A stretch of 64,000 nucleotides of DNA from positions 1,240,001-1,304,000 of the forward strand of contig NJPS01000048.1 in the NCBI GenBank assembly GCA_002946415.1. Reading direction: 5' to 3'. Of this stretch, positions 14,735 through 43,447 are shown piece by piece (positions within the stretch are counted from its first letter, which is position 1; every line of letters starts with the position of its first letter). Made by a program: the position numbers and the translations under genes. The notes beneath the pieces were generated by a model. The model worked only from the letters and a program-made list of their open reading frames with translations, was not told the DNA's origin and made no database searches. Source of the DNA: Rutstroemia sp. NJR-2017a BVV2 (lineage: Eukaryota > Ascomycota > Leotiomycetes > Helotiales > Rutstroemiaceae).

Positions 14735-14870
14735 GGTGTGATGGCTGAGTGGTCTAAAGCGATTGACTAGAAATCAATTCTCTTCGGAGGGTAAGCTAAT
14801 ATCTTTCAACTATCATTACAACATCAACTAATAATATCTTCCAGCGTAGGTTCAAATCCTACTCACATCG
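14735..14870 (+). tRNA. tRNA-Ser (anticodon AGA) with a 54-nt insert between variable arm and T arm
   Basis: Exon parts are 14735-14790 and 14845-14870. Together they form an 82-nt serine tRNA: acceptor GGTGTGA pairs with TCACATC, the D stem is GCT/AGC, the anticodon stem ATTGA/TCAAT encloses the loop CTAGAAA with anticodon AGA at 14769-14771, the variable arm is CTC-TTCG-GAG, and the T stem GTAGG/CCTAC encloses TTCAAAT. The A box is at 14742-14752 and the B box GGTTCAAATCC at 14849-14859. A T6 run at 14882-14887 can end Pol III transcription. There is no intron at the usual place one base after the anticodon. The insert lies at the end of the variable arm. An identical copy lies inverted at 16270-16405. 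Confidence 0.9.
14791..14844 (+). other. Intron-like insert (GT-AG type) within the tRNA-Ser gene
   Basis: The 54 nt begin GTAAGC and end CTTCCAG. A CTAAT branch-like site in ATCAACTAATAATATC lies about 14 nt before the AG. Size and signals match the spliceosomal introns of the protein genes in this window (45-60 nt is common). Its removal restores a canonical tRNA. A competing view is that the insert is recognised structurally: GGAGG at 14786-14790 can pair with CTTCC at 14838-14842 across the insert. Splicing is not shown by the sequence alone. Confidence 0.7.
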
Positions 14871-16269
14871 TGAGAAATAAATTTTTTCGATCTTTTGGAA
14901 GATACATTTTTTCCTATATAAGAGCACTTCTTTCTTACGATAACTTAGGGTGTTTGTTTTATATTACAGATCTTTTACAGGAGAAGGTGGGGCCGAGGTA
15001 CTGTAAACACACATCTGATCTGTACTGGATTCCGACTCCGAGGCTGTCCTGCAGTTGCGGATTCTTAGAGATGCGGGAGAGATGCGGGAGAGATGCGGGA
15101 GAAATGGTGGACTTGCTTGTGCCCCTTGTATTGGAGGTCTAACGCACCTTAGACTTGTCCTTGACAGGAAATGTCCATTTAACTTCTTTCGCAGACCGGG
15201 CTTCGATTTGGAGGAAGTATAATGGGTGTGTTGTACTCAGTCCGAATTCTTGGTTGAGAAAACATTTGATTCACACTTGCTCCTACGAATACTCCTGTCC
15301 TCATTGTCCAAGAGCGTGCATATCTTTTACCCAGATAATTGGTATTTAAGCTTCATATGAGATGGTCACCAGAAGGTGAAACATTGGCATTTGCTCTCCG
15401 AATCAACATTATCGAGACGGCTAACGGCTGCGATAACCTCGTGTCTGAAAAGGCAGAGTGGAGGTGGCGTATAGGGGAAGAGGGTTAGGAGAGATAGACA
15501 GAGATGAAGCATGGAGCGGGGAGACGAGGCGGGAGAGCGGAAGAGGATTAAGGAGCAGGAATACCAAGCAGAGGTATGTTAGGCATATACCGAAGTGGTC
15601 AGATTCATGCACGAACAGGAGTGGTCGGGATAACTTGGGTACGCCCCGCACAATGCAGAACAGAAGGCACGCCACATTAGAGGTATTGCAGCAAATTGAT
15701 ATGGAAGCAATAATAGAGCACGCAGGAATACATCGAGGGGTGATTAGATTGGAAATTTAAGCAAACGCCATATAATAGCAATGTACGTTGTGCAGCCAAT
15801 GTACTTTTTTTTCAAAACCCTCGCTATGTATAGGGATACCTTGCCAGATATCCCCGTGGCCTAACTCCTTCCCCAGATTCTACGAAATGAGAACTTTACT
15901 TGTTATGGCTTTCTGCCCGTCTCCATGCTAAAAGTTTATATTTACTTCCAGTGTTGATTGCGAAATACATTTTCTGTTCCTACTCGACCATTTCCTGTTC
16001 CGAAGGGAAACATAAAATTCCTCGTGTGCCCTATGCAGTGCGGGGTGGTGGATCTCGCTTGTCGAAATTCACCCCTGATCGAATCCACACAGCATCTGAC
16101 TATCTGTTCTTGCAATAAGACGAGATATATACTACGAAGTTCTACTTCACGCTTTCCATATATAGAAATATAGAGAGAAAAATACATATATTGAGGAAAG
16201 GTAGTCCAAAAAGATCGGTGATTACTTTACTCGAGGATGAAAACCTCCAAAAAAGAAATTTGATTGTCT
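14871..16269. other. Stretch between the two inverted tRNA-Ser genes
   Basis: No supported protein gene. At about 15067-15104 an 11-bp unit (AGATGCGGGAG-like) is repeated three times. The flanks just outside the two tRNA copies differ from each other apart from an AAATTT-like run and a T6 terminator on each side, so the shared sequence is limited to the tRNA genes. Confidence 0.5.
15067..15104. repeat. 11-bp minisatellite, three copies
   Basis: Three tandem copies of AGATGCGGGAG-like sequence, the last slightly changed (GAGAAATGG). No coding role is apparent. Confidence 0.8.
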
Positions 16270-16405
16270 CGATGTGAGTAGGATTTGAACCTACGCTGGA
16301 AGATATTATTAGTTGATGTTGTAATGATAGTTGAAAGATATTAGCTTACCCTCCGAAGAGAATTGATTTCTAGTCAATCGCTTTAGACCACTCAGCCATC
16401 ACACC
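16270..16405 (-). tRNA. Second tRNA-Ser (anticodon AGA) with the same 54-nt insert
   Basis: This is the reverse complement of 14735-14870 with no difference over 136 nt, insert included (insert at 16296-16349). The A box lies at 16388-16398 and the B box at 16281-16291. A run of six T on the minus strand (16249-16254) follows the 3' end by about 16 nt. The sequence directly upstream of the mature 5' end differs from the first copy. Both genes therefore keep promoter, structure and terminator and should be transcribed towards each other. Confidence 0.9.
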
Positions 16406-20203: not shown

Positions 20204-22542
20204 TCAAGTCCACAATCTGCAAGTACCATCTGCACCAGCACTAACACACCATGGCTCCTTAGGATGCCAATCAACGTCCATAACACCCAAAGCACTCTTC
20301 ACCTTGTGCCCTTTCAAAACCTTGACTGGCACAATAGTAGGATTCTCCATCATATCACTAACCACCTTTCCGTGGAATATTTGTAGACTACCATCATCAC
20401 TAGCATCTGCAAACAATGGAAGTCCTCCCTTGTGGTACTTCACTGCTCGGATAGCTTTTTGATGGAATCGCATAGTCTTATAAGGACGAGTAGAAAGATC
20501 GAGATCATGCCATAACAATCGACGATCATAAGATCCCACAATGAGATTATCACCTCCTGGGTGGATATCGAAGGAAGAAATCCAGCGAGCACCAGGCTGG
20601 ATAATTTTGACCAGCTCCTGCTTCTGAAGATCATAACTGCGGATAGTACGTTGAGTAGCGACGAAGAAAATAGGTCGAGATGGATGGAACTGAACAGTTT
20701 GAGGTATGCCTGGAAGACGGCGGAAAGGTATCTGCGTAAGATGCTTGGATAGAGTGTGGATTGCAACAGCGGACTTTTGTGCGGTGGGAGAGACCGTCGA
20801 GAAGAAATCGCCTCTCCTGTGCCAACTGATAACCTTGACTGTTGTTCTTACAGTAATCTTGATTAGTACACCTTCATCCTGCAGTCGTGAGCTTGGTCGA
20901 GCCCAAGTTGCGACCGGTTCTTTCTTTTGCCCATTTGCTGTGAGGGCTTGTGTAGTATTTTTCGCATAACCGAAACCAGCATCCAAGAGTTCCCGACCAT
21001 TGCTTTCAGCAACAGGGTCAATAATAGTAGGAACCATGAGGTATACATCTTCTCCTGCAGCAGCTGAAAGTATGATTGCATCCTTTGTAGGGCGCCATCT
21101 AACAACATTAACTGCCTCCTCATCCCCGATTTGTGCGCTCCAAAGTTGTTTCCCAGTAAGAAGTTCCCAGACACGGACAGTGCCATCATCACCACCGCTA
21201 GCTAACCAGGTCCCGGATGGATCAATTGCCAGACTTCGAACTCTGCCCTCGTGACCACGGAACAATACTTGTGTAACCGTTGGGTATGGTTTCAATTCCT
21301 CTGGCTTTGGAAGTTTGGGCAGTAGCGATGCAGGATCAATGTTTAGTCTGTTCTTTCTAACTCGAGGAGCGAGATACAAATCAAGCGATCGTTCAAATCT
21401 CTCATTGATAAATCTGTCATATGCAGGGACCTTTCGAAGTGAGTCGTATGCAGTCGGTAGGTATTCCTTTTCTCTGTCCTCCGGATCCATTGCATCCCAT
21501 TCCTTCTTCTCTGCCTTTGAGGGAAGGTACTCCGGAGGTGGGTTGTAACTTAGGTCATAACCTGGTGGAGGTGGCTTTGGTGCTGGGATTTTCATAACAT
21601 GGTCTGGTTGAGCTTCCTCGTTTTGCCAGATATCATAATGATGTTCTTCCTCCTCTTCATTTTCTCGCTCCTCCGGTGGTCGATATGGAAGTATTCTACC
21701 TTCTCGAATGGCGCGAACTATTTTCATTATTCGTTTCGCTTCATGCTTGGACGGCAGGAAACGTCGCTTCGGCTCCGGAGCGCCGCTTAGAGGCATTATT
21801 TCTTCCTTCGAAGTAAAGTATGGAACAGTTTCCTATGATCATTAGAGACGTGCATCGTTAAGCGCAAAGAAATACTCACTGGGTACGGGTCATAACCGTC
21901 TTCCGGCACCTCATTCGTTTGTATCCTGCGTAGAATCTCTAATTCCTCTTGACTCAAATTGAGAGGTTTGCCAGTAGAAGGATCTGTAAGACCTGTCCAG
22001 CCCTTGGGAACCTCAATACTGTCCAGAAGCGCATCAAGAGCCTCCCCCTTCGCGGGGCGCATAATCCTCTTGCCATTGATGTCGTATCCAATGTGAGGGT
22101 ATGAATCATAAAATGATAGAGGAATGTTGCCAATCGTATTCGCCGGTTCTTGAGCATCGGAATCGTCTGAGTCGTATACAGGGTCTATCTCCTCATATAC
22201 ATAACGTTCTCCACCGTTTGCATCCTTTACAACTCGGTAATTTGGCTTGTCGTCGTCGTTTTCAATGCCACTGGGTTTAGCAGAAGTATCCTCAGCCTCC
22301 GCATCCTCGTCTTCGCCTTTATCCTCAGGTATTTCATCACTATCCAGTCCCTCAAGCTCGTCCTCTTCTACGCCTTCCTCGTCACTGTTTTCGTCCTCGC
22401 TTTGGTCGGATTCATCTTCGCTTTGCGACAGTATTCCCTCCAATAGCCCATCACCAAATTCTGCCTCCGATTCTGCATCTGAATGTTCGGGTACATCTCG
22501 AGTTACAGCTTTGCGCTTCCGCTGGTTGGTTAATGGCGCCAT
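20204..22542 (-). CDS. ERB1: ERB1/BOP1 ribosome biogenesis protein
   Basis: Two exons, 21880-22542 and 20204-21832, separated by a 47-nt phase-0 intron, encode 763 residues. The first 100 residues are strongly acidic ([16 protein letters not shown]). The BOP1 N-terminal domain is clear: [40 protein letters not shown], and [16 protein letters not shown] across the splice junction. A C-terminal WD40 propeller follows, with [39 protein letters not shown] and the final [10 protein letters not shown]. Erb1/BOP1 with Nop7/PES1 and Ytm1/WDR12 forms the PeBoW complex for 27S pre-rRNA processing and 60S assembly in the nucleolus. Length is near yeast Erb1 (about 800). It is divergent from the Zn2Cys6 gene; the spacer is 277 bp. 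Confidence 0.96.
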
Positions 22543-41949: not shown

Positions 41950-43447
41950 TCATTTTAGGTGCACAAGCATACTCTCTGGATCTTCCACAAAGCCTCGCAC
42001 CATCTCCGCTGCTCGTGCCATCGTCGCACCGTCTATAACGCGGTGGTCGGCGCTCCAGCTGAAATTCATGATTTTCTTCTGGATGAGCTCGCCGGATGAG
42101 TTGAACGCGGGGATGGTTCGCAGTTTGCCGATGCCGAGGATGGCGAGCTGCGTTTCGACGAGGACGGGTGCAACGTAGGTTCCGCCTATGTTGCCAATGT
42201 TGGAGACGGTTATGGTGCCGCCGGATAGGTGAGTGCTGGTGAGAGAAGAGGTAGATGCGAGGCTTTGGAGCTGGGAGATGGAAGAGGCGATTTCGAGGAC
42301 GGACGCGTTTGATGTGGATTTTATGACAGGCACAAGAAGACCGTTGGATGTGTCCATTGCTACGCCGATGTTATGTTGGGGTCGCATCACTAAAACCGGC
42401 TTCTGTGTGGCAGGGTCGGTGTCTAAGCGGGCGTTGAGGATTGGATATTTTTGAAGAGTTAGTGAAACAGCCTTGATGATGAACGGAAGGTAGGATATTT
42501 TTGTGACATTGTTCATGGGGGTGGCAGATAGTTGCTTGTTGAGCCGCTCACGCAGTTGAGAGAGTCGCGTAAAGTCGATCTCGTCGGCGTATAGGAAGTG
42601 TGGAATATTCAAAGACTTCGTCATAGTTTTGAACATTTGATGTTGTGTAGGCGTTAACTGGGTAATAGTCTCCTTTAGTGGTTCGGCATGTGGAGTTCTC
42701 TCCGAGGAGAGTTGACCATTTGTGGTAGATGATGCAGCTCTTTGCTTCGCGAATTGATGTATATCTTCCTTCAAAACTCTTCCGTCTTTGCCTGTTCCTG
42801 TTACATCCAATATATTCACATCTAGTTCCTTCGTGAGGTGTCGCACTGCGGGGGTAGCTAATGCTGCATGTTTTCCCTTGGGTTTTTTTATGGCATCAGT
42901 CTCCGCAGCTGACTGCGACGCTCCCGGTACATCAACACTGTAGTCTGAGGGATATTCCTCTTCAGTCTGCTTCTTTGACTCCTCGCCAACACGTGATCCT
43001 TCTATGGCATCCAGATCCTCTTGCTTGATCTCCCCCTGGATGTCAATGTCCAGTAAAGGCTTTCCGACTTGTGCCATCTCGCCAGCTTCATAGTGTAGTT
43101 TTTTGATGACACCGGCGAACCGGCTAGTGATCTCAACTGAAGCTTTGTCACTCTGAACTTCACACAGTTTATCCCATTCTTCCACCCGCGCCTCAGGTTC
43201 AACGAACCATTGGATGATTTCACATTCTCGAATGCCTAACGATCAAGTTAGTTCAGAGCCTGGGCTTCATAGAGATGATGGTCCATCTACCTTCACCAAT
43301 ATCTGCCAGCAGAAATGGCTTTACGGCCAATGCTCTCGACGAAGCATGAAAGAACTTATTGACCGCTGGTGATTGCCTCGGGAGTTTCAAACCCCGACGG
43401 AGGCTCGACGGTCTGGTAGACAACCTCAAGAACAAGTGGCGACGCAT
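41950..43447 (-). CDS. Branched-chain alpha-keto acid dehydrogenase E2 (dihydrolipoyl transacylase), mitochondrial
   Basis: Exons 43291-43447 and 41950-43235 give 480 residues. An Arg/Ser-rich presequence (MRRHLFLRLSTRPSSLRRGL) leads to the lipoyl domain KPFLLADIGEGIRECEIIQW and the lipoylated Lys in CEVQSDKASVE at about residue 83. The peripheral subunit-binding domain is ATPAVRHLTKELDVNILDVT followed by GRVLKEDI. The catalytic domain includes IPHFLYADEIDFTRL, MRPQHNIGVAMDTSNGLLVP and the active site FSWSADHRVIDGATMARAAE. WFVEPEARVEEW and the overall pattern fit branched-chain E2 better than pyruvate or 2-oxoglutarate E2. It transfers acyl groups to CoA in Leu, Ile and Val breakdown. It shares a 239-bp divergent promoter with ATP10. 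Confidence 0.94.

Follow-up and report, generated by a model that had tools for sequence, protein, structure and literature searches.

Can a tRNA gene contain an intron that is removed by the spliceosome? The removal of introns from tRNAs is commonly ascribed to a protein endonuclease, and a tRNA that depended on the spliceosome would, if true, break that separation. The question is raised by two genes for tRNA-Ser(AGA) in the fungus Rutstroemia sp. NJR-2017a BVV2. Both lie in a 64,000-nucleotide stretch of contig NJPS01000048.1, here called the window.

The tRNA-Ser(AGA) genes of the window

The Rfam tRNA model (RF00005) matches the window at 14735-14870 on the forward strand and at 16270-16405 on the reverse strand, with 54.1 bits each. 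In its alignment, the variable arm and an insert form a single unmodelled stretch ahead of the T arm. The insert is 54 nt long in both copies, begins with GT, ends with AG and is located between the variable arm and base 48 (Table 1). In the first copy, positions 14791-14844 read GTAAGC...ACTAAT...TTCCAG. The register of the junction is ambiguous by one base, a shared G, and GT..AG is found in just one of the two registers; the chance of GT..AG occurring in one of two registers is about 0.007.

The two copies are identical at 136 of 136 bases. The second is inverted and lies 1.4 kb from the first, and no BLAST match (E <= 1) was found between the flanks of the two. Because the identity covers the gene, intron included, and the flanks are dissimilar, gene conversion confined to the gene would be the simplest explanation for it.

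Table 1. Positions of the window tRNA-Ser(AGA) genes and of the U6 gene. Positions are those of the window unless a contig is named.
Feature	Position	Strand	Evidence
Copy 1, exon 1: acceptor 5' strand, D arm (A box), anticodon arm with AGA, variable arm	14735..14790	+	sequence, RF00005, pairing, serine model
Copy 1, 54-nt insert, proposed U2-type spliceosomal intron	14791..14844	+	sequence, profile score, copy comparison
Copy 1, 5' splice site GTAAGC, same in the diverged third copy	14791..14796	+	copy comparison
Copy 1, branch-site motif ACTAAT, proposed branch A at 14831, 13 nt from the intron end; the third copy reads ACTAAC here	14827..14832	+	
Copy 1, 3' splice site CAG, inside TTCCAG	14842..14844	+	sequence, copy comparison
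Copy 1, exon 2: base 48, T arm (B box), acceptor 3' strand, discriminator G	14845..14870	+	sequence, pairing, serine model
T6 run 3' of copy 1, likely Pol III terminator (presumed function)	14882..14887	+	sequence
Copy 2, exon 1	16350..16405	-	RF00005, sequence
Copy 2, insert, same sequence as in copy 1	16296..16349	-	sequence, BLAST
Copy 2, exon 2	16270..16295	-	RF00005, sequence
T6 run 3' of copy 2, likely Pol III terminator (presumed function)	16249..16254	-	sequence
U6 snRNA gene, with 57-nt GTAAGT...GCTAAC...CACCAG between ATTTG and GTCAATTTG	contig C23, ~42069-42240	-	sequence

Structure of the tRNA without the insert

When the insert is removed, all 23 pairs of a class II cloverleaf with an AGA anticodon form, in agreement with an earlier note on this DNA, made from the letters alone, which had described a complete tRNA once 14791-14844 is taken out. 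The two spliced Ser(AGA) forms can be aligned with the Ser(GCT) and Ser(CGA) tRNAs of the same genome, and all 92 cells of the 23-pair structure then pair. Changes on both sides are seen at 16 of the 23 pairs, in an alignment that is small (four rows) and whose exon joins were picked by the analyst.

An independent test used a model made from Ser(GCT), Ser(CGA) and two Ser(TGA) genes and from no Ser(AGA) gene. In the window this model matches exon 1 through the variable arm with 44.4 bits; the end of that match is pushed into the intron, where non-standard pairs are used. Model positions 55-73 are found in a separate 15-bit match at 14844-14862. A third copy of the gene, on contig C33, is likewise split (38.1 and 14.4 bits). 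Since the match splits at the insert, the break can be placed at the 3' end of the variable arm.

Canonical introns of nuclear tRNA genes resemble the insert in being short and in lying within a tRNA gene, and the genome's other serine tRNAs have them. Five more serine genes were seen, two for Ser(GCT), one for Ser(CGA) and two for Ser(TGA). ARAGORN reports anticodon introns in all five, and no variable-arm insert was found when they were read by eye. Canonical introns occupy position 37/38. The Ser(AGA) insert, in contrast, is found between the variable arm and base 48, and it has the splice signals of mRNA.

The third copy and the search for genes without an insert

The genome searched comprises 43.4 Mb in 79 contigs. 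A query of the 136 bases finds three places in it, namely the two window copies and C33:391037-391173, which the earlier note does not mention. This copy is 88% identical to the window copies. It carries an insert of 55 nt at the same site, reading GTAAGCTAAATATCCC...TTACTAACAATGTCTTCCAG, and a run of eight T is found downstream. Beyond the gene itself, the only match between this 3-kb locus and the window is one of 20 bases (E 0.59).

A comparison of the diverged copies shows differences at 3 of the 82 exon positions and at 13 of the 56 aligned intron columns, gaps counted (Fisher p = 0.0007). Two of the exon changes, at 3 and 79, turn one acceptor pair from U-A to C-G; the third, at 73, turns a T-stem U-A into U-G. 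The sequences GTAAGC, ACTAAY at 13 nt from the end, and TTCCAG are common to both versions of the intron. Judged from the letters, such a pattern is to be expected if both the tRNA and the splice signals are under constraint.

A Ser(AGA) gene lacking the insert, which the earlier note had proposed to look for, was found neither by BLAST, nor by a pattern for exon 1, nor by a generic tRNA search, none of them exhaustive. The exon 1 pattern, with up to 3 mismatches and applied genome-wide, gives the same three insert-bearing places alone (control 0). A pattern with a shorter D loop gives 14 places against 12 in its control, and 3 of the 14 were identified, as two Ser(TGA) genes and one Ser(CGA) gene. 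In the generic search, 63 of 1404 candidates were scored and 62 listed. Given these last two fractions, an intronless Ser(AGA) gene may still exist in the genome. A scan of viral contigs for a stretch of exon 1 gave no match.

Several matches were seen at equal coordinates on contigs C25 and C74, and a tRNA of C8 is repeated letter for letter on C37. The assembly thus has duplicated contigs, and raw gene counts are inflated.

Comparison with the mRNA introns of the genome

To obtain reference introns, actin, Ypt1, calmodulin and ERB1 were aligned, in spliced form, to 22 of the 33 loci that homology searches gave, plus one stretch of the window (the ERB1 gene). The requirements were GT..AG and a length of 42-199 nt, and nothing else. 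Of 56 distinct introns, the 32 with at least 5 identities in 12 alignment steps on both sides were retained and the other 24 dropped; a few of the 32 have odd 5' ends and may be wrong.

This homology-defined set was adopted after the results of ab initio gene models and of a loose motif scan had been seen. The ab initio models of the window gave unreliable introns and were set aside as a source. The loose scan, over 153,188 bases, found no excess over shuffled sequence (23 real and 23.2 shuffled at 50-59 nt), so that the case rests on the homology-defined introns.

The reference introns are 47-169 nt long, with a median of 58, a range into which the tRNA inserts of 54 and 55 nt fall. Their best branch match is CTRAY in 24 of 32, and RCTRAY is found 6-36 nt before the end in 20 of 32. 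Both inserts have RCTRAY at 13 nt from the end (ACTAAT and ACTAAC), as is found in U2-type branch sites, and both read GTAAGC...CAG, with the GT..AG ends of U2-type introns and a fungal 5' splice site. The absence of TTTT from the inserts lends no support, since TTTT is also missing from 24 of the 32 mRNA introns.

A profile was made from these 32 introns, the branch site in each being chosen as the best match. The two versions of the insert score 10.99 and 11.04 on it, at the 62.5th percentile of the reference introns. A score at least equal to that of the insert is reached by 15 of the 11,512 GT..AG spans of 45-70 nt in the window. Under a stricter rule (GTRAG, RCTRAY, YAG) both inserts pass, together with 20 of the 11,512 spans and 10 of the 32 reference introns. 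The description given in the earlier note, of an insert that begins with GTAAGC, holds a branch motif, ends with CCAG and has the length of an mRNA intron, therefore agrees with the reference set.

Two patterns were used to look for other tRNAs with such introns. The first gives 10 places, against 4 in a backward control. Three of these belong to the Ser(AGA) genes. Among the remaining seven, two lie in tRNAs with anticodon introns according to ARAGORN (contigs C38 and C2), four lie where no tRNA was seen, and one is on C74, with the coordinates and letters of a place on C25. The second pattern gives 4 places, against 5 in its backward control: the three Ser(AGA) genes and one place where no tRNA was seen. 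With such control counts, both patterns are weakly specific.

Two adjoining tRNA matches of 137 and 146 nt were seen at C34:1184940-1186000. ARAGORN calls one of them with a 65-nt anticodon intron, its longest, and does not call the other.

Introns in other small RNA genes

The genome has a single U6 match, in which 3 of the 5 pairs of the 5' hairpin are non-standard. Upstream of it the DNA reads GCCTTCGGGCATTTG, then GTAAGT...GCTAAC...CACCAG (57 nt), then GTCAATTTGAAACGATACAGAG, and the Rfam match mistakes part of the 57-nt stretch for the 5' end of U6. When the 57 nt are left out, the usual U6 5' hairpin and ATTTGGTCAA join, as in the U6 consensus. By its sequence, the stretch seems to be an mRNA-type intron, which would make U6 a further Pol III gene of this genome to carry one. 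For SRP RNA, the whole model is matched over 281 nt, by the model match alone.

The intron of the third Ser(AGA) copy and that of U6 share CTAACAAT at the branch site, which may be due to chance.

Introns of this kind are known from other fungi. The U6 intron of fission yeast is called mRNA-type in the part of the source available, where it is thought to derive from reverse splicing (PMC10484740). Fungal U6 introns, in fission yeast and others, resemble the Ser(AGA) insert in that a spliceosomal intron with GT..AG and a branch site interrupts a short, structured Pol III RNA gene. They differ in their host, which is a part of the spliceosome and not a tRNA. The reverse-splicing account, as given there, relies on the nearness of U6 to the catalytic core, and so it cannot be transferred to a tRNA.

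Fungal U3 snoRNA genes are likewise known hosts of spliceosomal introns, as described in the available text of PMC5832005, with branch sites that read RCTRAY at 6-36 nt before the intron end. The earlier note had named U6 as the main Pol III host of mRNA-type introns; U3 has to be added as a host of such introns. U3 introns share with the Ser(AGA) insert a normal GT-AG, RCTRAY and a small structured host RNA, and they occur in Leotiomycetes too; they differ in the host RNA, in their average length of 92 nt and in lying mostly in the 5' stem-loop (same source). According to the portion available of one survey, U3 and U6 are the only small structured RNAs known to be interrupted often. The Ser(AGA) insert does not belong to a class defined by U6 or U3 as host, its own host being a tRNA. 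It is best read as an intron that would work as the U6 and U3 introns do, the host RNA being new.

A probable spliceosomal intron and its alternatives

The insert resembles the mRNA introns at its splice sites, at its branch site and in its length. This agreement, the signals kept in the third copy and the apparent U6 intron together support a spliceosomal intron. The best reading of the sequence, and in our judgement a highly probable one, is that all three tRNA-Ser(AGA) copies found carry an intron of the spliceosomal type, as the earlier note had proposed from the window copies.

Alternatively, the tRNA-splicing endonuclease could cut the insert as an ectopic tRNA intron, at a bulge-helix-bulge (BHB) or a relaxed form of it, with the pairing of GGAGG and CTTCC as a guide, in the manner of some archaea and of the red alga C. 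merolae. Such introns also lie outside the anticodon loop. The variable arm is among the archaeal sites outside 37/38 named in the available text of PMC3978253, which adds ectopic introns in C. merolae and a nucleomorph. Both GGAGG and CTTCC are kept in the two intron versions and their pairing, the structural alternative of the earlier note, can be written in each; in the minimum-energy folds of both versions, however, the partner of GGAGG is a stretch nearer the start of the intron and not CTTCC. In the GT..AG register, 3 of the 4 central BHB pairs form, but only 1 of 3 on each flank, in both versions, which falls short of an hBHBh' structure. The other register gives 2 of 4 central pairs and 1 of 3 and 3 of 3 flanking pairs. 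Endonuclease cutting offers no reason for GTAAGC, ACTAAY and YAG, and the yeast enzyme cuts only at 37/38, according to the available part of a review (PMC4033280). We regard it as improbable. As covered in the available parts of two reviews of tRNA diversity and permuted tRNAs, the ectopic introns described are those of archaea, algae and a nucleomorph, and spliceosomal ones are not mentioned (PMC3978253, PMC4033280); tRNAscan-SE 2.0 treats noncanonical introns as archaeal, according to the available text of PMC8450103.

A slightly smaller chance is given to dead copies, that is, tRNA pseudogenes in which an insertion was later duplicated, with an intact gene elsewhere. An assembly of 79 contigs and searches that are not exhaustive leave some room for such a gene, but neither BLAST nor the 3-mismatch pattern yields an intronless copy. 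Runs of 6, 6 and 8 T follow the three genes, and the third copy, with both bases of one acceptor pair replaced and one U-A turned into U-G, has changed less in the tRNA than in the intron. It is most unlikely of all that the genes hold a canonical anticodon intron and an unusual 3' exon. This is how ARAGORN reads them, calling all three Ser(aga) with anticodon introns of 50, 50 and 48 nt, but its product is without a variable-arm helix and its boundaries vary by copy (after 38 or after 36), for which the reading was rejected. The independent serine model, moreover, keeps the anticodon arm and the variable arm ahead of the break. A self-splicing intron of group I or II was also rejected: the insert has 54 nt, as against a few hundred for a ribozyme core, and at gathering scores the Rfam matches in the window are to tRNA only.

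Proposed mechanism and its significance

If the insert is a spliceosomal intron, the Ser(AGA) genes would be working nuclear genes, transcribed by Pol III from the internal A and B boxes, with transcription ending at the T run. In each, a U2-type intron would part the variable arm from base 48. The spliceosome, and not the tRNA-splicing endonuclease, would remove this intron, with branching at ACTAAY, and splicing would join GGAGG to CGTAGG to give a class II tRNA of 82 nt. Given the splicing that we infer, the making of this tRNA probably needs the spliceosome.

In standard decoding, UCU and UCC need the AGA (IGA) tRNA. These codons make up 107 of 324 serine codons in 9 of the 12 window ORFs of at least 250 aa, and their use suggests that translation needs Ser(AGA).

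The matches listed in a search of open-licence full-text literature, judged by titles and the starts of abstracts, included none that reports a tRNA gene with a spliceosomal intron. As far as the searches show, this is likely to be the first tRNA that relies on the spliceosome for its making: every gene for an essential tRNA of this fungus would need pre-mRNA splicing, the reading of UCU and UCC would be tied to the spliceosome, and the lineage would be one in which Pol III transcripts, U6 too, take up spliceosomal introns.

There is also a warning for annotation. A finder limited to anticodon introns still calls the Ser(AGA) genes, with wrong boundaries, and further such cases may therefore be hidden.

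If true, the finding means that intron gain reaches structured RNAs outside the spliceosome, and that such gain can be tested in relatives that possibly still hold the empty site. By its ERB1 protein, encoded at 20207-21796 of the window, the fungus is most likely a leotiomycete close to Rutstroemia: this one protein shares 99% identity with its counterpart in Rutstroemia sp. NJR-2017a BBW, and its next five matches, Monilinia and Botrytis among them, are 93-95% identical.
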